Made by a program: the position numbers and the translations under genes. From the NCBI GenBank assembly GCA_013036095.1, contig JAAXCW010000001.1:372001-436000 (forward strand): DNA of 64,000 nt, in the 5' to 3' direction. The notes beneath the pieces are model-generated. The model saw only the letters and a program-made list of their open reading frames with translations, did no database searches and was not told the DNA's origin. This document shows positions 49,827 to 61,428 of this stretch, piece after piece. The stretch is from Vulcanimicrobiota bacterium. GTDB lineage: Bacteria > Vulcanimicrobiota > Vulcanimicrobiia > Vulcanimicrobiales > Vulcanimicrobiaceae. Every line of letters starts with the position of its first letter. The stretch's first letter is position 1.

Positions 49827-51005
49827 TTAGATATTCGCGCCAAACAGAAAATCGATCATTTGATCTCTCTGATGATCGTTTAACGGAAAACCAGTTCCGA
49901 TTAAAAACATCCTTTTTTCCTGAATGACGAAATCTGATTGTCTGACCCGCTCCAAAAATTGGGCATATTCCGGCTGATAGGTAACCGAATGCGTTGCCGG
50001 AAGCAGCAACGCTCGCGATGTTTCGCCGCTGCTCAAGCTCTCGTCGTTTAGCTTGGTGACGTAAACTCCTCGAAAGTTATCCCCATGGACGCGCCTAGAC
50101 AAGAACACGGCTGCATTTATGTACGGATCGTTCCCGCCATAGCCTATGGACAGAAAACGAGGACATCTTAATAGGCCGTCTACCAGCCTCTGATGATACA
50201 GGCCGTAGGGTTCGAGAATCAGCTTTTCCGTTTTGCGAAGTCCTGAAAGCATCGGACCGTTAAACAGTATTTCTCCTGCTTGCGAAACGAACATAAGATC
50301 TTTTCTTGCTAAACGCTGCGGTTTAGCCTCGGCATTAGACGCAAAACGGCGAAGCTCGGGCATCACCTGAGCGTTCGACTCTGGTGGAGCAAACCGAATA
50401 CTGCCGTGCAGGTGAAGTACTTCTAGGGGATGCTCGTGCAAGAATCCGGGGTAATCGACGCCGGCGGGATTCTGATCGGTAAAGCCGTCCCAAAACGTAT
50501 CCACGCTACGTTCAATCGCGTCATCGTAATTGAGCGTTGCTATTCGCACGTTTGTGTGCTCGCGCAAGGGCCGTAAGAACGCTGAGATTACTCCTTGCTT
50601 TTCCGGAGACGACTCGCTGATCTTCTCATCCAGAAAGTCGGCAACGTTTGCCATCATCTCGATGCCGAAGCGTTCCAAGGACGTTTGTTCAAGCAAACGT
50701 TCCCACCGTCCACCGATGTCCATGAAGGCGTTGAAGGCGACCTTATGCGCATCAGGGAGCGTATATCCGAAGCGGCTCCTTCCCGCAGACAACATGGACT
50801 CGACTAGATGCAGCAGCGTTTCAAAGTTTGGTTTGTCATAATAGGCGTTGGCCATCTTCCAAAGGACATTGCCAATAGGGACCTCATGATGGTCATCGCC
50901 ACTGACACCGTACAAAGGAAGCGATCGAATGTGAGACGTGATTGCGTCTGTACCTGGCAGGTTGATTCCCTGAGAGAAGCCGGCTCCAAGAAGAACCGTC
51001 AGCAT
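49827..51005 (-). CDS. SIR2-like NAD-binding protein
   Basis: 392 residues. Rossmann start LTVLLGAGFSQGINLPGTD (GAGFS 7-11), IATLNYDDAIERSVD (157-168), LHLHGSIRFAPP (198-209) and FLSIGYGGNDPYINAAV, the layout of the SIR2_2/SIR2-like group. In defence systems such proteins deplete NAD+ on phage infection; a deacetylase role is the alternative but the catalytic His context is partial. It is 28 bases upstream of nothing recognisable as partner; an HTH regulator follows on the same strand. Confidence 0.85.
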   Translation of the reverse strand: MLTVLLGAGFSQGINLPGTDAITSHIRSLPLYGVSGDDHHEVPIGNVLWKMANAYYDKPNFETLLHLVESMLSAGRSRFGYTLPDAHKVAFNAFMDIGGRWERLLEQTSLERFGIEMMANVADFLDEKISESSPEKQGVISAFLRPLREHTNVRIATLNYDDAIERSVDTFWDGFTDQNPAGVDYPGFLHEHPLEVLHLHGSIRFAPPESNAQVMPELRRFASNAEAKPQRLARKDLMFVSQAGEILFNGPMLSGLRKTEKLILEPYGLYHQRLVDGLLRCPRFLSIGYGGNDPYINAAVFLSRRVHGDNFRGVYVTKLNDESLSSGETSRALLLPATHSVTYQPEYAQFLERVRQSDFVIQEKRMFLIGTGFPLNDHQRDQMIDFLFGANI

Positions 51006-51033: not shown

Positions 51034-51408
51034 TTATTTGCGCCGCTTTAACGACGCTTGCGCTCGGCTCAAATCGTCCGCCGCCGCCTTCAACCGCTTT
51101 TGCGCTGCATCGATCGCCTGGGACACCTGAGCCCCTCGCGCTTTGGTATCGGCAGAAACCACGTCAGGTAGATCCAAAAGGCCAGCCTTAGACGCCAGTT
51201 CGTCGACCGATATGCCAAGCGCGGCGGCAAGGCGGCAGGCAGTGGAAAGCTGGATGCCCTGGCGTTCGTCCTTCTCAAGTCTTGTGAGCGTCCCCTGACT
51301 TAGGTTCGCGGCCCGGGCGAGCGCCGTGGCCTGCAAGCCGGCTCGTTCTCGGAGCGTTCGAAGCGCCCGCCCCAGCGTTTTAGGCATCCGTGGGTCGTTT
51401 GCCACCAC
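51034..51408 (-). CDS. Xre-family HTH transcriptional regulator
   Basis: 124 residues (GTG 51408; ATG 51387 possible). Helix-turn-helix LGRALRTLRERAGLQATALARAANLSQGTLTRLEKDERQGIQLSTACRLAAALGISVDELA, then a charged coiled-coil tail. Lies just upstream of the SIR2-like gene on the same strand (gap 28 bases) and may control it and itself through TTGCCAA/TTGGCAA at 51448-51471. Confidence 0.9.
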   Translation of the reverse strand: MVANDPRMPKTLGRALRTLRERAGLQATALARAANLSQGTLTRLEKDERQGIQLSTACRLAAALGISVDELASKAGLLDLPDVVSADTKARGAQVSQAIDAAQKRLKAAADDLSRAQASLKRRK

Positions 51409-52186: not shown

Positions 52187-53722
52187 ATGAAGGCAACAGC
52201 GAAGAAAAGGGCCCCGGTTACGTCCAGCGCATGGGCGCTGCTCGTGGTCTCCGACTCAGGCCAAGCCGAGACGCTACCCAACCAAGAGGCGTGGGCGCGC
52301 GAAGCGGCCGCCAAAAACGGCTGGACGATCACGCGCTATTTCTCGGGCGTGTCGACCGGGAAGTACGGAACGCGCGCGCTCGCGTCGAGGATGATCACCG
52401 AACTTGAAGAGATGCCGGCGGAGTCGCGACCTCAGCGCGTGCTCATGATCAGGCTCGAGCGCTTAGGCCGCGGCAACGGCCTCGAAGCTATGGAATCATT
52501 CTTGCGCATTCGGAAGCTGGGGATCATCGTGCACACCCGTCTGGACGGCGACGTCGGGTACGAAAAAGCGTCCGAACTCTTGATGCCGGTGCTGAGGTTC
52601 TTCATTGGCGGGATGGAGAACGAGGTGCGCCGCGACAAGCTTCACGCGACGTACGCTCGGCGGCGCGAAGGCAACAAATCCGATCCGACGATCGCACTAA
52701 GTAACCGCCCTCCGTACGGATTGCAGTTCACCAATGGCAAATATGCAGAACAGCTTCCGGAAGCTGCCACCGTTCGCCAGATTTACGATCTAAAGATTCA
52801 GGGATACGGCGGTCATCTAATCGCCAAACGCATTGGCGCGACGGCGCCGCCGATGACGCTCAAAGACGGCCGCGCCGTGCCGCAAGTCTGGACTGCTGAT
52901 CGCGTGCATAAGATCATCGCCAAGGTGACCTACCGGGGAACGCTGGTCGATGACGCGACATGGCTGCGCGCCCAGCAGTACCTGCGCGAGATGCGCTGTA
53001 AATCGCGGCGTTTCGACTACCCGCTGGGCGGCGCACTGCAGTGCGAGTGTGGCTATGTGCTTATCGGACATGCCGGCGCAGCCCGCGGGGAAGGCCGCTG
53101 GCGCAACTACCACTGTTCGCATCTAGAAAACCACGGCGGGCATTCCCGCTCCCACCCTATCGCCAAAATCGACGCGCAGTTCGTCGAATTACTGCAGCGG
53201 CTCTCCGCCGACGACGCGCTTCTCGAACGCTACGTCACCACGCAAACGCACGGGCCGAGCCGCAAAAGCCTCACGGCCAAACTGAATGCGCGCATCCGCG
53301 AGCTTGATGCGATGGAGTCGCGCAAACGCAAAATTTTCGATGCCTTCGAGAGCGGAACGATATCTAACGAAGATCTGCGCTGGAGGCTAACCGACCTTCG
53401 CGACTCGGAGCTGAATCTCGCCAGCGTCATCGCCTCTATCGAAAGCCAGCTAGCAGCAGACGAGTCTCGTAGCGTCAGCGTGGCACATGCTCGTGAACTC
53501 ATCCGCAGTGCGGCGGAACTATGGAGTGCGGCTGAAATAGAGGACCGGCGCGCGGTCGCAAAAGCAGTCTCGGTCGCGTGCGGTGGCTTATTCGTAACCT
53601 TCAAAGGAGAGCTCGTCGTGGGAACCAGAGCGGTCAGCGTACCGGCGACGGTGGGTGAGAAGAAAGGCTATCGGCGCGTTACTCCATTCCCCCTAGATGG
53701 ACAACGTGCGGGGCCTAGGTAA
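52187..53722 (+). CDS. Large serine recombinase
   Basis: 511 residues. Resolvase catalytic domain with the Ser22 in LLVVSDSGQAETLPNQ and the Arg cluster MIRLERLGRGNG. Then the recombinase domain (NRPPYGLQFTNGKYAEQLPEAATVRQIYDLKIQGYGGHLIAKRIGA ... WTADRVHKIIAKVTYRG), a zinc-ribbon-like segment (LQCECGYVLIG...YHCSHLENHGGH), and coiled-coil helices near the end. It integrates or excises DNA between att sites and is the mobility gene of the island. Confidence 0.93.
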   Translation: MKATAKKRAPVTSSAWALLVVSDSGQAETLPNQEAWAREAAAKNGWTITRYFSGVSTGKYGTRALASRMITELEEMPAESRPQRVLMIRLERLGRGNGLEAMESFLRIRKLGIIVHTRLDGDVGYEKASELLMPVLRFFIGGMENEVRRDKLHATYARRREGNKSDPTIALSNRPPYGLQFTNGKYAEQLPEAATVRQIYDLKIQGYGGHLIAKRIGATAPPMTLKDGRAVPQVWTADRVHKIIAKVTYRGTLVDDATWLRAQQYLREMRCKSRRFDYPLGGALQCECGYVLIGHAGAARGEGRWRNYHCSHLENHGGHSRSHPIAKIDAQFVELLQRLSADDALLERYVTTQTHGPSRKSLTAKLNARIRELDAMESRKRKIFDAFESGTISNEDLRWRLTDLRDSELNLASVIASIESQLAADESRSVSVAHARELIRSAAELWSAAEIEDRRAVAKAVSVACGGLFVTFKGELVVGTRAVSVPATVGEKKGYRRVTPFPLDGQRAGPR

Positions 53723-53743: not shown

Positions 53744-54388
53744 CTACACTTCCTCACCTAAAGAACGAGCCCCGTCCCCAAAGTCTTTCCATTCTTCATT
53801 ACCTATCAGCGTCGATCGGATCATTTCGATTTTTTCGCATCCGGAAATCGAGCCGAGAACATCTTTGACGGTTTCGAAGACGCCGGGGTGGACCCAAGGA
53901 CCCAAAGTCACTTTTTTAATGCTCGACATCGGAATGGGCAAATCAAGCGTCGACTTAGTTCCGTTCGATCCGTAAACGATTCGAAACTCGCGTTCATCTT
54001 CAAAACCAAGCCGCTTCAAAAAAGGCAACTGACTGACAGGAGGGTGGTCCGCTTCGCGAACCGCCTTAAGAGGTATGTAACGGACAGTCTTGGCTTTGAC
54101 GCGAGGATGGCTCCGGACAGCCTTGAGAAGCGAGCTGCGGTCGAATGTAATACAGACTCCGCTTGGGCCATTGGCAAAGACGCGCCAGTGATGATACCGT
54201 TCGCCACGTTGAGTGAAGCAGACGGCTAGAACTGATTTCAGGTTCTTCGCTTCTTTATATACGGTCAGGTAGTGCGTGTCGTTGCCATCGTCCCACATTG
54301 ACGGGTCGATTAACGTGATGGCGCGCTTCTTGAGGACGTATATCAATGAGGTCAAGTCGCAATAGCGGCGAAGATAAGATTTGGACAT
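53744..54388 (-). CDS. DUF2971 domain protein
   Basis: 214 residues. LRRYCDLTSLIYVLKKRAITLIDPSMWDDGNDTHYL (W/NDP-like box), CFTQRGERYHHWRVFANGPSGVCITFDRSSLL (the CFS...mW..Ya...G..igF block) and FLKRLGFEDEREFRIVYGS are the family landmarks. DUF2971 proteins are common in phage-defence islands; enzymology unknown. Base composition looks more AT-rich than neighbours. Confidence 0.85.
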   Translation of the reverse strand: MSKSYLRRYCDLTSLIYVLKKRAITLIDPSMWDDGNDTHYLTVYKEAKNLKSVLAVCFTQRGERYHHWRVFANGPSGVCITFDRSSLLKAVRSHPRVKAKTVRYIPLKAVREADHPPVSQLPFLKRLGFEDEREFRIVYGSNGTKSTLDLPIPMSSIKKVTLGPWVHPGVFETVKDVLGSISGCEKIEMIRSTLIGNEEWKDFGDGARSLGEEV

Positions 54389-54600
54389 TGCCTACTCCAA
54401 TAGAGAAACTGCAAGGATTCGGGTTCGGTCCTAACTATCAAGTGATTACCCTAGAAGAACATCGGGTTCGCGTAAGAAACTCACGGCGCACGAAAATTGG
54501 TTCAACAGGGAAACATCGCACCGAAAGCCGCACCGGCGCACGCTACCAAGAAACCAAATCGCAGGAAATTAGCCTTCGGCGTTCGCATAAACACCCGGCC
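54389..54600. other. Divergent gap between DUF2971 and vsr
   Basis: 212 bases. The vsr frame is open here but reads as low-complexity basic sequence without a ribosome site, so I regard it as upstream region; a longer Vsr N terminus is possible. Confidence 0.4.
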
Positions 54601-55092
54601 ATGAAGAAACGCCGCGATCAAAACTTGGCCCGCAAAAATCAAAAACCTACCAAGGCTGCAAGAAGTGAACGCTGGGCGTCAACCAAATTCTCCAGGCAGC
54701 TTTCCGGCCGCCGCTCGCGCGACACTACGCCCGAAATCACACTGCGCCGCGCACTTTACGCCGCTGGCTTCCGTTTCCGAATACATTATAAAATCGGAAG
54801 GCGGTTAACGGCTGATATTATGCTTCCCAAATACCACGTCGCAATCATGGTAGACGGTTGCTTTTGGCACTCGCACTTCTGCCCAAGAGGCCGCCGCACC
54901 AAGCCGATCACCGGCCCGAATGCGGGCGCCTGGCTAAAAAAATTCGCTCGCGTAAAGGAGAGGGAGGCGGAGGCCGCCAGCGGCCTGAGCGGGATGGGCT
55001 ATCGCGTCGTACGCATATGGGAATGCGAGATCACTCAGGACCTCCCATCGGCGCTCTACCGGGCCACCGAGTTCGCCCGCTTGCATTGCTAA
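54601..55092 (+). CDS. vsr: Very short patch repair (Vsr) endonuclease
   Basis: 163 residues from ATG 54601. DTTPEITLRRALYAAGFRFRIHYKIGRRLTADIMLPKYHVAIMVDGCFWHSHFCPRGRRTKPITGPNAGAWLKKFARVKEREAEAA: catalytic Asp in ADIML, His pair in FWHSH, zinc ligands Cys/His in FWHSHFC and IWECE near the end. It nicks T:G mismatches made by deamination of 5-methylcytosine. Near the Dcm and a GHKL ATPase, as in MutL/MORC-type restriction clusters. Confidence 0.93.
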   Translation: MKKRRDQNLARKNQKPTKAARSERWASTKFSRQLSGRRSRDTTPEITLRRALYAAGFRFRIHYKIGRRLTADIMLPKYHVAIMVDGCFWHSHFCPRGRRTKPITGPNAGAWLKKFARVKEREAEAASGLSGMGYRVVRIWECEITQDLPSALYRATEFARLHC

Positions 55093-55477: not shown

Positions 55478-57340
55478 CTAAAAATCCATTGCGCGCGAGA
55501 GATCGCTCACGAGCAGCCAGCGCTCTTCTTCCGTAAGGCCATCAAGAAGCCGGTGCGCATCGAGAACCCAGAGAGCGGCCTTGAGGCGCGCCGAAAAGAC
55601 GATATCGCTCTCAACGCCCCCCTTCTTCTTGTTCGGAAGCCCGCCAATAAAAAGCGTATCCGGCGGTAAAGAACTTGGCGGCTCCTCGCTGGATGAGAAC
55701 ACGATCTCAGGGGGCTTCGCGCGCGGCGCGTTGCGCCGGTGCGACCACATGCGCGCCGCAGTCTGCAGCAATATCTCGGCCTCGCGGGTTTCTTCTTGCC
55801 CCTTTTTATCGTATGCGACTGCCTTCTGATCCGCTTTCAGCCGTGAAAATAACCGGGTCATTGAACGGTGCACCCAGTACTCTAGCTGCCGCACCGACGG
55901 ATCCGTTTGCACAAACGATTCCCGGTCAACATTGAGTGCGTTCTCCAGCCCGTGATCGATGAACGCCTCAGCGGAAACCTGCCTGAGGCGAAGATTCTCC
56001 GATGTGCGAAATCCTAAGAACTGAGGGTCAAATAGGGTGCCGCTGGCGCCGGCAATGCGCGCTAAAATTCCGTTATTCTCTTTTGGAATGATCGCATAAG
56101 ACCAAAAGAAATAGCCGGTTAGACGAAGGTCCGCGCCTTCGCGAGTGCTCGTGAAATCACCAACGAACATCTTAGGGCGCGGGAGCAGCCGGCGTGGGTC
56201 CGCGGCAAACTTCTGAAAAACAATAGGCCTGCGCAGTTCGATACCGTCAATATAGATTGAAAAGGGAATGGGCGGTGCCCCCTCTTCTGAAATCCCTAAG
56301 TAGGGACCAATCTTAATGCCAGGAGGCAAGTCTTCAATTTTTTCTGGTGTGCTGTCTCCCCCTAAGCTGTAAAAGTCAATTCCGTCGTCAGCCGTCAACG
56401 AGAACGGATGGCGTTCCACGTACTTCAATGGCGCGCTCAATGAGATTTTCCACAGCATCGCAAGATAATAGTCGAGGGTCTTATCGATCGATGGCGATGC
56501 GGCTGCGGCTTCAGACTGAGTACTCAACGCGTCGACGAGTTTCTTGAATTTCTGAAGCGGGGATGCGCCAGGGGCCCACGGCAAAACTGCCTCGGTCTTC
56601 GGCTCGGCGCGCCCGATATGATACTTCAGCTCGCCTTTCTGGCGCGGCGCATTGGAACGCAATAAATCCCAACGGTCCGAACTGCGCAGAATGTGACGCG
56701 CATCCTCAAGTACGTCATGCAAAACAATCCGCGTGTAATGCTTGTTGACTTCGGCAGGATGAACGCGTTGCCGCTCAACTTTTGCAAAACCCGCAACGTA
56801 GCGCTCACCTCCAGCAGGTTGAACCTGATCGGCATCAAGCCCACTAAGATCCAAATCGACGAAGAACCGGTACGAGGCATCCTCCTGCTTCGATTCTACG
56901 GTCAGGTGTCTCGTTAGGCGCGCCACAGAGTACAGGCCGATCCCCATCTGCCCGATCAGCTTTCGGCCGCCTGGGCTAACGCCTACCGAACGCGTCACGC
57001 CTGCCGCGGAACCGCGCTCGGAGCGCTTGAGTGTCCCACCAACATGGTGCACCAAATATGCGATCGCGGTCTCGGACATCCCGATACCGTCGTCCTCAAT
57101 TTCAATCTTGTCGAAAAAAGGCGGATGCATCGTAATGCGAATCTCGGTCGCATCCGCGTCATAGGAGTTGGAAACCAGCTCGCGCAGCGCAGAAGCGGGC
57201 TCGCGGTACAGGCCAAGGGTGATCCGCTCGAAAACCTGCGGATCGGTCGCGACTTCTGTGGTTACCGAGCCGGATGCAGCGAGTTGTTTTCGGAATTCCT
57301 CATCGGACGCTGCACGCGCCTTAACGCGTTGTGCGGCCAC
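55478..57340 (-). CDS. GHKL ATPase, Hsp90/MutL/MORC-like
   Basis: 620 residues. Bergerat fold: N box ALRELVSNSYDADA (51-64), G1 box EDDGIGMSE (82-90), G2 box LIGQMGIGLYSVARL. Long middle and C-terminal domains unlike HtpG. Such ATPases occur in restriction-modification-type clusters with Dcm methyltransferases and Vsr nucleases, where they may act as MutL/MORC-like clamps. It overlaps the end of the methyltransferase gene by 20 bases, so they are translationally linked. Confidence 0.9.
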   Translation of the reverse strand: MAAQRVKARAASDEEFRKQLAASGSVTTEVATDPQVFERITLGLYREPASALRELVSNSYDADATEIRITMHPPFFDKIEIEDDGIGMSETAIAYLVHHVGGTLKRSERGSAAGVTRSVGVSPGGRKLIGQMGIGLYSVARLTRHLTVESKQEDASYRFFVDLDLSGLDADQVQPAGGERYVAGFAKVERQRVHPAEVNKHYTRIVLHDVLEDARHILRSSDRWDLLRSNAPRQKGELKYHIGRAEPKTEAVLPWAPGASPLQKFKKLVDALSTQSEAAAASPSIDKTLDYYLAMLWKISLSAPLKYVERHPFSLTADDGIDFYSLGGDSTPEKIEDLPPGIKIGPYLGISEEGAPPIPFSIYIDGIELRRPIVFQKFAADPRRLLPRPKMFVGDFTSTREGADLRLTGYFFWSYAIIPKENNGILARIAGASGTLFDPQFLGFRTSENLRLRQVSAEAFIDHGLENALNVDRESFVQTDPSVRQLEYWVHRSMTRLFSRLKADQKAVAYDKKGQEETREAEILLQTAARMWSHRRNAPRAKPPEIVFSSSEEPPSSLPPDTLFIGGLPNKKKGGVESDIVFSARLKAALWVLDAHRLLDGLTEEERWLLVSDLSRAMDF

Positions 57341-58664
57341 GAGGAATCAAACTCTTTCTGATATGACAAGCGATCGCGAAAGCTAAAAGGGGCGGGACTG
57401 CGTTCGCGACTTGCAGCGGCTGGTTCGCACGAGCCCCGAGAAATACATAGTTAACGGGAAAACTCTGGATCGAGGCAGCCTCTCGGACAGACAACGTGCG
57501 GTGGCAAGTTGGATGAACTGGTAGGGCGCGGTGCCCTGCAATTATCGTGTTCGCATATAACCGCGAAAGCCTCCGGTATGACAAGGGGCCGCCGTTGCTT
57601 CGAATCTTCTTAATTTTCTTCAACACTCGCCGAGAATGGCGCATAGTTCCCACGTTCCAAATATAGAAACCATTGCTCAAACGGTACCAGTCACGGGCGC
57701 ATCCGTGTTGCCGGCTCGGTAACCCGCGCAAAACTTCCGTGACCGTTGGCGCCGACGGCAACCGGCTTCGATCTGTCTGTTCACGGTGCGTTGCTGGCGG
57801 AGCTCCTAACGGACGCATAGACTTGCGCCGTCCAAAAAAGAAATACCGCTGACGCTTCTGAGGGACTCCGTAATCAAGAGCTCGCAAAAGATGAACCTCG
57901 ACCTTAAAGTGCTTTCCGAGCTCTGCTTCAACAATCTCTTTGTAGCTCCGGCGGCCGAACTTGCGGTTCATGCCAGGAACATTCTCAATGAGTACTACCT
58001 GCGGCTTCAAGCCACGCGCAATTGCCAACACATGCCTGAACAGATGATGCCGCGGATCTCTTCTTTTGCGAAGTCCGGCGACAGAGTACGACTGACAAGG
58101 TGGACCAGCACATATCGCAGACACGTTGGGCCCCGCCGCACGGCGAACCTGGGCCGCCGTCAGCTTCCCAATATCGGCTTCAATCACCGGAACTCCAGGG
58201 TTATTGAAACGGTATGTTTGAGCGGCGTTGCGATCCATCTCGACAGCGAGGCCGACTCGAAAACCAGCCTTGCGAAAGCCGCTCCCAAGACCGCCGGCAC
58301 CTCCAAAAAGATCAACGACAACCGGGAGTTCGCTCGAACGAATTCTTTGCTTGCCAAGGCCACAAAAAGAAACGAGCGGACATTGTGCACAGCGAGGCTG
58401 AGCGCGGCAGACGCGCCGGCGGTGGAAAAGGAGAGCAGTAAAATCCGCCGGTGCAAAGTGCCGCGCCGCTACTCCGAGCCGCTCAAACATTTGACGCAGA
58501 TCTCTTGCGCCCGATGATGTTCCGCCTTTAGCGGAGCGGCCCTGACCAACGATCTTGTCGAAGTACATTGTTCTGAGCAGCTCATTAACCCGAGATGCGA
58601 CCAGAGGCGCCCGCCGCCCATCGACGAGGCTACGTTTCAAGGCGGTCCTGCGCGAAAGAAACAA
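57321..58664 (-). CDS. dcm: Cytosine-5 DNA methyltransferase with N-terminal Fe-S-like domain
   Basis: 447 residues. C5-MTase core from residue 115: DLFGGAGGLGSGF (motif I), AGPPCQSYSVAG with catalytic Cys190 (IV), ENVPG (VI), QKRQRYFF (VIII) and ANAVPP (X, usual Gly changed to Ala). The first 110 residues carry Cys86-x5-Cys92-x2-Cys95-x5-Cys101 in RRVCRAQPRCAQCPLVSFC, like the C-terminal 4Fe-4S loop of endonuclease III/MutY (C-x6-C-x2-C-x5-C). No HhH-GPD catalytic region was seen. It methylates the island's target and may guide Vsr/GHKL partners. Confidence 0.9.
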   Translation of the reverse strand: MFLSRRTALKRSLVDGRRAPLVASRVNELLRTMYFDKIVGQGRSAKGGTSSGARDLRQMFERLGVAARHFAPADFTALLFHRRRVCRAQPRCAQCPLVSFCGLGKQRIRSSELPVVVDLFGGAGGLGSGFRKAGFRVGLAVEMDRNAAQTYRFNNPGVPVIEADIGKLTAAQVRRAAGPNVSAICAGPPCQSYSVAGLRKRRDPRHHLFRHVLAIARGLKPQVVLIENVPGMNRKFGRRSYKEIVEAELGKHFKVEVHLLRALDYGVPQKRQRYFFFGRRKSMRPLGAPPATHREQTDRSRLPSAPTVTEVLRGLPSRQHGCARDWYRLSNGFYIWNVGTMRHSRRVLKKIKKIRSNGGPLSYRRLSRLYANTIIAGHRALPVHPTCHRTLSVREAASIQSFPVNYVFLGARANQPLQVANAVPPLLAFAIACHIRKSLIPRGRTTR

Positions 58665-58762
58665 GGATGCGGTTTCTGCGCTTGGGCTCGCTATAAGAAA
58701 ACTGCAAACTTTTCACAAGCTCTCTGACTGACGGCCACCTTTAAGATATAGCAGAAAACCCT

Positions 58763-58887
58763 GCGGCTCAGCCCCGAGCCGCGAACTTTATTTAGCGCGT
58801 TTTGTTCGTGTCACCATGTTGGATATCCCGCAACATGCCGGTTGCTTTTTCCTGGAGCCGCCACGGCTCGCCGTGCGAGAGCCGTGG
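58763..58887 (+). promoter_or_regulatory. Hairpin-rich leader of the tandem-HTH gene
   Basis: Three perfect dyads: GCGGCTC/GAGCCGC (58763-58782), CATGTTG/CAACATG (58815-58837) and CCACGGCTC/GAGCCGTGG (58861-58887). The last right arm can instead pair with ACGGCTC at 58888-58894, which abuts the GGGAG ribosome site, so two exclusive structures are possible. Confidence 0.6.
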
Positions 58888-58904
58888 ACGGCTCGGGAGA
58901 AACG

Positions 58905-59600
58905 GTGGCAAGAAGCAAGTCACGATCAACCCATGAACGCCTCGCGGCAGCGTACGAGGCTTATAAGAAATACCGATCGCTTTCAAAGGCCGGAGCATCG
59001 CTCCGCCCTCCCGTCAAGAGAACGCAGATGCAAAACCTCCTTGCTAAAGGCGCAGCGCTTGGGCTTTTCAATTACGCTCCGCGCACAAACGGAAAACCCA
59101 AACGCGTTAACCACGAGCGGATCACAGAAGCCGGTGATCTCTACAGGCGCCTCCGCAGTTTTGCTGCCGCAGGCCGGGCCATGGACCCGCCCGTTGGGAA
59201 AACGCGCGCGAGAAGACTTGTTCAAATCGGAACAGAGCTGGGATTTCTTTCTGCTCCTGAAAGCCGCCGACAGCTACGCAGCGAGGACATCGTGAATGCA
59301 ATACTCGCATCCGGTTCGGTCAAGGCCGCCGCTAAGGATCTACGCATCGGCCTAAAAACTCTGTACGCGAAATTCGGACCAGAGATCGTCGGCCTCTCGG
59401 CCCAAGCTCGGCGCCAGCACGCCAAGACCAGAGTTCTCAACCGCTACAAAAGCACGGCGCGCTCCTTGCGTTATAACCCGCCCGTAACTCCAAAAGCTCT
59501 GGGCGCCGCATTGTATTCCCGTATTTTGGACTTGTGGAAAACGCCGAAAGCATTCCTGATTGAGAACGCGATCGAAGCCGGAAGAAACCCGCTGGCGTGA
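58905..59600 (+). CDS. Tandem helix-turn-helix repeat protein, novel
   Basis: 231 residues from GTG 58905 with GGGAG 5-9 bases upstream (longer frame from 58842 lacks a site). Two copies of an approximately 48-residue unit: 11-58 (ERLAAAYEAYKKYRSLSKAG...PPVKRT..NLLAKGAALGLF) and 71-118 (ERITEAGDLYRRLRSFAAAG...PPVGKT..RLVQIGTELGFL). A Fis-like HTH follows (127-160, GSVKAAAKDLRIGLKTLYAKF). A positively charged C-terminal tail. Probably binds repeated DNA sites. No family recognised. Divergent from the methyltransferase gene. Confidence 0.65.
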   Translation: MARSKSRSTHERLAAAYEAYKKYRSLSKAGASLRPPVKRTQMQNLLAKGAALGLFNYAPRTNGKPKRVNHERITEAGDLYRRLRSFAAAGRAMDPPVGKTRARRLVQIGTELGFLSAPESRRQLRSEDIVNAILASGSVKAAAKDLRIGLKTLYAKFGPEIVGLSAQARRQHAKTRVLNRYKSTARSLRYNPPVTPKALGAALYSRILDLWKTPKAFLIENAIEAGRNPLA

Positions 59601-59658
59601 ATGCACGCCGAACGTAAGTTCGAAAAGCACGTCCGCCGAATCGCCCTTGAACGGCGGC

Positions 59659-61428
59659 TTACGCAATGATTTGAGCGGCGCCCGTGTATTGCTTGCCCGC
59701 TGCGTCCAAACCTGACCGCCAAAATTGAGGATCGCCCAGATAGTCACCGTGGACCCACACCCTCCAAGGGAACGCCGATCCTAGGCGAACGTTATCGCAC
59801 ACCGAGTGTGTCGAAGGCGTAGTCGTGCTCAACAATCGGCTGCCGGGCGCGACACTGGAGCGGTAAGAAACAATTTGGTTAGCGACGAGGTCATGCTCGT
59901 ACCAAAAATTTGCCCAGTAAATACCCACGTGCCCCGTATTGGCCTTCTGAAGAACACTTTTATTTTTGGTAAAAAGATGTCCGTACACGTCATCGCGCCA
60001 GCGCTGCACCGATGCCGAATACGACGGGTTACGAACATCGAAAAAGAACCTGGTTTTTTCAAGCGATGTTCCAAAGGTAATGAGCCCCCGCAGCCGTCGC
60101 CATAACGTTTCGGACATACCCTGCTCTTCGACTAATTCATGGATGTTCATCAAAGCGTCGAGGGCGATAGTGGAGCCGAGGCTGTGCGCGGCGACGAATA
60201 TTTTATCGTAGTATGGTTGAACGACCGGAGGTTCAGTGTCCAAAATGTTCGCTTCTTCTACGTGTACGACCGTCGCCTTTGGGCGCTGATCGTCGGTCGT
60301 GCGTAGCACGCTTAAAATGACGCTCTCGACAGCCTGCACAATACTCTTGCGCAGTTCGAAAAATTTTGCATTTTCATCTTGGGTACAATATATCTGAACG
60401 TCCCCCAGAAAATTGATAAGGAACCCTTGGATAAGTGCCAGTGCGCTCTTTAGCGCTCCCACAGCTGCCACTAATGTGAAAGCCGGAGCGAGCGTCTCGT
60501 ATACCCGGGCTCCCGGGGTTATTGGAAAACCCCAAGCCAAAACGCCAAAGCAAAATATCGACAGTGCGGCAAGCGCCGCCTGCATGTAATAACGCCAGGA
60601 TGTACGCGGGCCTTCGCGGATGCGCGTATCGCCCGTCTTTTTCTGTTTTCGCCTACGCCAAGCTCGCTGCATTTCCATGATAACGCTAAAAATGAGCTGC
60701 CAGAAGGCGTAAGAACCAATCGCGGCGATCAGCAGAACTATCGCGGCTCGAGACCCGAGGCCGTTTACCGCGTTTACGGGGTTTGTAAAAAAGGCGAGAA
60801 ATCCGGGAATGATCTTCCCGCACGGTGTGCCCGCGCTACGTACAGTATCCCAGATTGATTGCATACCGCACGTGACTATTGAGGCATAGAGAAACCACGC
60901 ACGGTCTGCAATCGCAGCAAACAGAATAAGCAACGCGACGATGATGAAAAAGGCGCAAAGCACGTAGCCGATGTCAAAAAGCGTCTTGCGAGGCGATGCA
61001 TACAGCTTTGCAAATCCGTTAAGTGGCGAGAAAAGCGACCGTAACAACCATTGCAAGACGGCCTGTACCGTTGTCTGGTTCTTGTCGATCGGGCTCCAAT
61101 AACCCTCAAAGACATCGTAAAAATGCTCAGTGTTTTCTGGAGTCTCGCCTTCAGGGTAGATCCGCACAGCGGTCGCATGCAAATCCGAAGCTGATGCGTC
61201 GCTGCGGGTGATCACCGGCCAGAGAATGGCCTTGCTCCATGACTTATTTAGGTGTTGCAGCCGGCACAGTTCTTGGCGCAGCCCCTCGGCAAAATCATCT
61301 TGCATCGCGTACCGAGGATGCGGGCAGACGCCATGCACGGCGATGATTGCCGTTTTGTTCTTCAATGCGGCGTCACCGCCGGCTGTGGAAACCGTTCGCA
61401 ATTCGGTTCTTGGCGCGGGTTGCTCCAA
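59659..61428 (-). CDS. Membrane-embedded alpha/beta hydrolase
   Basis: 589 residues (ATG 61428; TTG 61365, overlapping the upstream stop, would give 568). N-terminal strand and oxyanion loop KTAIIAVHGVCPHPRY, then four hydrophobic helices (about 151-173, 225-250, 281-302, 310-340) inserted before the nucleophile elbow KIFVAAHSLGSTIALDAL (Ser416) and LITFGTSLEKTRFFF. Resembles hydrolases that act on lipids or lipid-linked substrates at the inner membrane. Coupled to the preceding membrane-anchored protein gene. Confidence 0.82.
   Translation of the reverse strand: MEQPAPRTELRTVSTAGGDAALKNKTAIIAVHGVCPHPRYAMQDDFAEGLRQELCRLQHLNKSWSKAILWPVITRSDASASDLHATAVRIYPEGETPENTEHFYDVFEGYWSPIDKNQTTVQAVLQWLLRSLFSPLNGFAKLYASPRKTLFDIGYVLCAFFIIVALLILFAAIADRAWFLYASIVTCGMQSIWDTVRSAGTPCGKIIPGFLAFFTNPVNAVNGLGSRAAIVLLIAAIGSYAFWQLIFSVIMEMQRAWRRRKQKKTGDTRIREGPRTSWRYYMQAALAALSIFCFGVLAWGFPITPGARVYETLAPAFTLVAAVGALKSALALIQGFLINFLGDVQIYCTQDENAKFFELRKSIVQAVESVILSVLRTTDDQRPKATVVHVEEANILDTEPPVVQPYYDKIFVAAHSLGSTIALDALMNIHELVEEQGMSETLWRRLRGLITFGTSLEKTRFFFDVRNPSYSASVQRWRDDVYGHLFTKNKSVLQKANTGHVGIYWANFWYEHDLVANQIVSYRSSVAPGSRLLSTTTPSTHSVCDNVRLGSAFPWRVWVHGDYLGDPQFWRSGLDAAGKQYTGAAQIIA

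Follow-up and report, generated by a model that had tools for sequence, protein, structure and literature searches.

Why does a C5-cytosine DNA methyltransferase carry, ahead of its catalytic domain, a four-cysteine loop like the iron–sulfur (Fe–S) loop of Mig, MutY and Nth glycosylases? The question is raised by a 64,000-nucleotide stretch of a Vulcanimicrobiota bacterium genome (assembly GCA_013036095.1, contig JAAXCW010000001.1, positions 372,001–436,000; hereafter the window), in which the methyltransferase gene (57321–58664, minus strand) overlaps the gene for a 620-residue GHKL ATPase (55478–57340, minus strand) by 20 bases (57321–57340). The answer we favour, at about even confidence, is that the N terminus is the Fe–S lobe of a glycosylase of the Mig/MutY/endonuclease III (EndoIII) class, fused to the methyltransferase and probably serving as a DNA-holding module in a GHKL-containing restriction–modification-like (R–M-like) system. 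The open reading frames (ORFs), strands, coordinates and overlap agree with a first-pass annotation made from the DNA letters alone, which had also pointed to the loop.

An Fe–S-loop motif precedes the methyltransferase domain

Residues 116–435 of the methyltransferase ORF (57360–58319) match PF00145 (DNA_methylase; E 1.4e-54, 186.2 bits, cut-off 22), and the PCQ, ENV and C-terminal AVPP motifs of C5 methyltransferases are all present; across five aligned methyltransferases L119, F120, G122, G124, G125, G187–Q191 (GPPCQ), E227–V229 (ENV) and A422–P425 are invariant. Ahead of this domain in the protein lies C86-x5-C92-x2-C95-x5-C101 (58362–58409, minus strand), a four-cysteine loop with the loop proline seen in Mig, MutY and Nth glycosylases. 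The pattern C-x5/6-C-x2-C-x5-C occurs only this once in the window, whose stop-to-stop frames of at least 60 residues total 76,821 residues over both strands.

The sole family match in the first 110 residues is DUF4505, at E 0.11. The best match among PDB sequences is EndoIII (1p59/1orn; E 0.0026, residues 78–112, the loop being gapped by one residue), which bears out the earlier recognition of an EndoIII-class Cys-x5-Cys-x2-Cys-x5-Cys motif on a C5 methyltransferase. Comparison by hhalign with 21 Nth/MutY domains gave 92.9% over the loop, in a set that includes the MutY of locus L002, itself retrieved by a query peptide. That retrieval came from a contig scan with the N-terminal 118 residues, which reaches only sequences holding one of six exact query peptides; it returned 173 pattern stretches, and the one confirmed was the Fe–S loop of the L002 MutY. 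The ten residues common to the two proteins count for little, because eight of them are the search peptide. A PDB search with an alignment profile (A4), which placed a G–T mismatch repair enzyme (1kea) first, was discarded as evidence for the query, the profile being dominated by its five glycosylase rows.

Relation to Mig-type glycosylases

Judged by sequence comparison, the closest source of the loop is a Mig-type mismatch glycosylase, the term denoting short relatives of Mig.MthI named by similarity and not by activity. PMC2714593 describes Mig.MthI as acting on T/G mismatches from deaminated 5-methylcytosine. Against Mig-type sets without L002, hhalign gave 91.1% (11 proteins) and 94.7% (20 proteins; E 6e-8 for that single comparison), with residues 8–117 aligning colinearly in the larger set and most of the score coming from the loop; glycosylases kept out of the final set of 20 were L121, with stops in the translated stretch, L130, an ordinary mutY, and L132, missed by a regular expression. 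The corresponding test with a profile of Nth/MutY domains only is weaker (its score is reached by 6 of 300 shuffles and 3 of the 300 natural segments). The x5 spacing of the loop recurs in 7 of the 20 Mig-type proteins, including three (L170, L171 and L172) encoded near C5 methyltransferases in the window's phylum.

Only the C-terminal lobe of the Mig-type proteins is matched, its putative pre-loop part corresponding to residues 18–85 (58410–58613, minus strand; colinear in hhalign). Eleven aligned Mig-type proteins share 23 invariant positions; within the retained part, the four cysteines and the loop proline are kept, and the other invariants are either missing or kept in some alignments and not in others. 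The catalytic aspartate (Asp140, the D of GPD) is an alanine in the query, the next invariant residue, Asn142, is an arginine, and the aspartate of the LDF motif is kept or lost depending on the alignment. The HhH half, with its catalytic Tyr/Lys, is absent from the ORF, which has no PF00730 match, as the first-pass annotation had noted in seeing no catalytic HhH-GPD domain. Nor was an HhH half found upstream, when 20 such halves were searched against 58300–60200 (best E 0.083 in a 1.9-kb target, that is, noise). With the HhH half gone and the catalytic aspartate replaced, the fused lobe cannot work as a glycosylase.

Linkage of Mig-type genes to C5 methyltransferases

In other genomes, Mig-type genes are repeatedly found next to C5 methyltransferases, in some cases together with GHKL ATPases. 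In one genome of the window's phylum (L070/L120) a C5 methyltransferase gene is directly preceded by an HhH-GPD gene; the product of the latter (P0015) resembles Mig.MthI, lies nearest to mutY in NCBIfam at a score under that model's cut-off, and matched 80 plasmid records by tblastn, among them the mig gene annotated in Methanothermobacter. At 10 of 12 plasmid loci chosen from these 80 records, the Mig-type gene overlaps a C5 methyltransferase or lies at most 2.1 kb from it. Within the window's phylum, such a gene stands beside 7 of 42 methyltransferase matches (cut-off E 1e-12; spread over 31 of the 149 genomes). On viral contigs tblastn places a C5 methyltransferase at two of nine Mig loci (L131 and L133) and at none of the other seven; a phage search with one Mig-type protein gave 31 matching records. 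A GHKL ATPase joins the two genes at L009, where it is a BbrUII/HgiDII enzyme (800.8 bits, cut-off 550); the GHKL family accompanies the pair also at L120 and L172, and at L123 by annotation only.

Haloarchaeal plasmids carry, at L004, L005 and L014, C5 methyltransferases extended at the N terminus by about 300 residues that look HhH-GPD-like by eye, and at L005 a separate Mig-type gene adjoins the methyltransferase. As candidate fusions these were rejected, since the hhalign values for P0007, P0008 and L014 were 20.8% against Nth/MutY and 0.9% against Mig. A glycosylase–methyltransferase fusion suggested by annotation (H130) was likewise dropped: an unannotated glycosylase frame merely overlaps the end of the methyltransferase.

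The GHKL partner and the gene neighbourhood

The ATPase matches HATPase_c_3 (E 1.4e-13) and has the N, G1 and G2 boxes of the GHKL family, with E54, N58, D83-x-G85-x-G87 and G133-x-G135 shared with a relative in genome G411 that is 34% identical over residues 17–616. Its best NCBIfam match is the BbrUII/HgiDII model NF050001, at 72.3 bits over residues 35–212, below the 550 bits of the model's full-length criterion; family-model scans found no nuclease family in the C-terminal part. Within the window's phylum, matches at E 1e-8 occur in two other genomes only and cover parts of the ATPase region (residues 15–176 and 33–95). Of 398 genomes of the L002 phylum one, G411, has this relative, and the other 384 of the 385 genomes sampled in its class have none at E 1e-15. 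Besides the GHKL gene, its locus (L118) holds genes for a Vsr-like protein and a C5 methyltransferase, and a further gene that overlaps the GHKL gene by 4 bases and encodes a 408-residue protein; this protein (L118, 8174–9400) has no Pfam, PADLOC or PDB match and no counterpart in the window.

The Vsr-like ORF of the window (54346–55092, plus strand; conserved part about 54640–55092) is 36% identical over 111 residues to that of the G411 locus, and scores above the Pfam cut-off (62.9 against 27) and below that of NCBIfam (83.4 against 97.85). The first-pass annotation was right to place it nearby, 385 bp past the GHKL stop, but it is convergent with the pair and therefore not co-transcribed with it.

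As to the methyltransferase start, the ORF has 447 residues from TTG 58664, before which no Shine–Dalgarno sequence is visible. A probable one, AGGA (58646–58649), lies 5 nucleotides upstream of TTG 58640 (start codon 58638–58640, minus strand), which makes the latter the likelier start as read in the sequence and would give a protein of about 439 residues. No stop interrupts the frame from 16 codons ahead of TTG 58664 onwards (open frame 463). Codon usage over 110 codons ranks this frame first of the six for the N-terminal part, with a small lead of 10.9 bits when the methyltransferase is used for training and 7.8 bits when it is left out. Upstream of the start, between divergent genes, is a GC-rich hairpin of 8 pairs (58762–58783), of a kind that the scan finds often.

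Farther out, a SIR2_2-domain protein (49827–51005, minus strand) adjoins a helix–turn–helix (HTH) regulator (51034–51408, minus strand) and may form a further defence unit with it. A serine recombinase with Resolvase and Recombinase domains (52187–53722, plus strand) may have moved the island. A DUF2971 protein (53744–54388, minus strand) matches the PADLOC candidate defence family PDC-S31, and a 589-residue protein with hydrophobic stretches (59659–61428, minus strand) has no match in Pfam, NCBIfam or PADLOC.

A proposed DNA-holding lobe and the alternatives

The Fe–S loop of EndoIII and MutY contacts the DNA backbone. The fused lobe would, by the reading we favour, bind a [4Fe–4S] cluster and contact the backbone in the same manner, tethering or orienting the methyltransferase. 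The methyltransferase/GHKL pair is probably R–M-like, anti-virus and laterally acquired, and in a restriction role the GHKL ATPase would act on unmethylated DNA. Where deamination of 5-methylcytosine has left a T/G mismatch, Mig-type glycosylases excise the T, and together with Vsr they guard against mutations arising from the methylated base; T/G repair, if any is done here, may fall to the Vsr-like protein nearby.

Several results weigh against this reading. To begin with, no second C5 methyltransferase with an Fe–S-loop domain, the homologue that the first-pass annotation had asked for, came to light in several partial surveys. Searched by tblastn with the whole protein, plasmids gave no fusion among the best 40 of 647 records and phages none among the best 20 of 584; an apparent phage match from residue 80 (H41) was discarded, the match having run back into a neighbouring gene. 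On viral contigs a scan returned four stretches, none of them confirmed, and two IUPAC patterns gave 14 loci, 13 of them in the scan output, again with no fusion. Within the window's phylum, none of the 41 other methyltransferases aligns before residue 90, and the cysteine motif is present in none of the 25 scannable loci of 29 fetched. The L002 phylum (genome titled proteobacterium) has 26 methyltransferase matches (cut-off E 1e-25) in 25 of the 398 genomes sampled, with the motif in none of the 24 loci scanned; two alignments there that start at residues 74 and 81 both cross a stop and were rejected. With no other copy found, selection on the domain cannot be shown.

The region ahead of the loop adds to the difficulty. 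When residues 18–85 were compared without the loop, scores as high were reached by 4 of 300 shuffles and by none of the 300 natural segments with 6 Mig sequences, by 26 of 1000 and 21 of 1000 with 11, and by 9 of 1500 and 1 of 1500 with 20; with the last 15 residues held fixed, the shuffles reaching them were 57 of 1000 (11 Mig sequences) and 103 of 1500 (20). Residues 18–85 thus outscore most of the controls, though by no decisive margin, and their homology to the Mig-type lobe is weakly supported. AlphaFold2 models of the N terminus are of low confidence (mean predicted local distance difference test score 42.1 alone, 49.4 with five glycosylase lobes), and the blast comparison that detects the loop at E ~1e-5 also gives E 0.005 for one unrelated site on the opposite strand. 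Finally, the G411 methyltransferase has no N-terminal Fe–S domain, so the domain is dispensable there. From this and from the sparse occurrence of the system it follows that the GHKL/methyltransferase system is rare and probably mobile, and that the Fe–S lobe is not among its constant components.

A lobe in decay would present much the same picture, and the chief rival is that the fusion left a neutral remnant, a reading possible in our view but on the unlikely side. A deletion would have fused the methyltransferase gene with a Mig-type neighbour, leaving a lobe that is translated but idle, or a protein that starts later (for example at Met34). That the fusion is a single case, that the G411 relative does without the domain, that the pre-loop region is very divergent and the start a TTG all suit this account, as do the Mig-type genes that adjoin methyltransferases in relatives, also directly upstream. 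It sits less easily with the survival of the four cysteines and the loop proline where the catalytic aspartate and the following asparagine are lost, with a frame free of stops from upstream of the first TTG, and with a Shine–Dalgarno sequence that fits TTG 58640.

A bolder reading, in which a [4Fe–4S] cluster in a domesticated, non-catalytic lobe would scan DNA integrity or redox state and so gate GHKL restriction, is a long shot. Close to it stands the proposal of the first-pass annotation that the lobe is a redox or DNA-damage sensor, the oxidation state of its cluster or its binding to lesions switching methylation or restriction. The Fe–S loop match is compatible with this, and the clusters of EndoIII and MutY have been reported to alter DNA affinity with redox state; as no result of the analysis bears on sensing and no regulatory partner was identified, we regard it as improbable. 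We give slightly less credence still to a docking module that would bring the GHKL ATPase, Vsr or a repair enzyme of the host to methylated sites and not hold DNA: the overlap of the methyltransferase and GHKL genes, the Vsr-like gene nearby and a MutL–Vsr interaction named in the title of a cited paper would fit, but all three partners are present in G411, where the domain is lacking. Chance cysteines, a zinc site or an assembly chimera, suggested by a metagenome-type assembly with 6.6% contamination, the want of a homologue of the fusion and the poor structure models, are very improbable, given a loop match that exceeds the cysteines in searches not seeded with query letters (PDB and hhalign), a motif found once in all the frames of the window and at a sensible domain junction, and a continuous frame.

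A methyltransferase that had taken up the Fe–S lobe of a mismatch glycosylase but not its chemistry would offer a clean test of the role of the loop apart from base excision. Loci that combine Mig-type, C5 methyltransferase and GHKL genes (BbrUII/HgiDII- and MZA-like) also link the repair and defence parts of islands.

Comparison with known systems

The BbrUII/HgiDII restriction system provides the best NCBIfam match and, like the window, has a C5 methyltransferase gene overlapping that of a GHKL ATPase; however, the window ATPase falls far short of that model over its full length and has no C-terminal nuclease family match. The N-terminal domain of the methyltransferase M.SsoII is an HTH. The M.SsoII type (PMC6100179) resembles the window enzyme in bearing an extra N-terminal domain on a C5 methyltransferase, but there it is a regulator domain and here a lobe with an Fe–S loop.

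MORC and paraMORC R–M neighbourhoods, as described in PMC2292703, combine a GHKL ATPase with a cytosine methylase and Vsr, in agreement with the first-pass statement that a GHKL/Dcm/Vsr setting is familiar from comparative genomics. The likeness lies in general GHKL resemblance and gene context; by contrast, Pfam finds no helicase family among the ten window ORFs scanned. In the main text of PMC2292703 the terms glycosylase, MutY, endonuclease III, HhH and iron do not occur, and a search of the literature by titles and abstract openings, with subscription journals largely outside it, showed among the papers listed no C5 methyltransferase with an Fe–S loop.

The nearest likeness to the N terminus itself is with Mig.MthI and the Mig-type glycosylases, relatives of MutY, which share the four-cysteine loop with its conserved proline, in some cases the x5 spacing, and the linkage to C5 methyltransferases. 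They differ in possessing the HhH half and the catalytic aspartate, which is an alanine in the window protein, and in being encoded by a separate gene, whereas here the lobe is fused to the methyltransferase.

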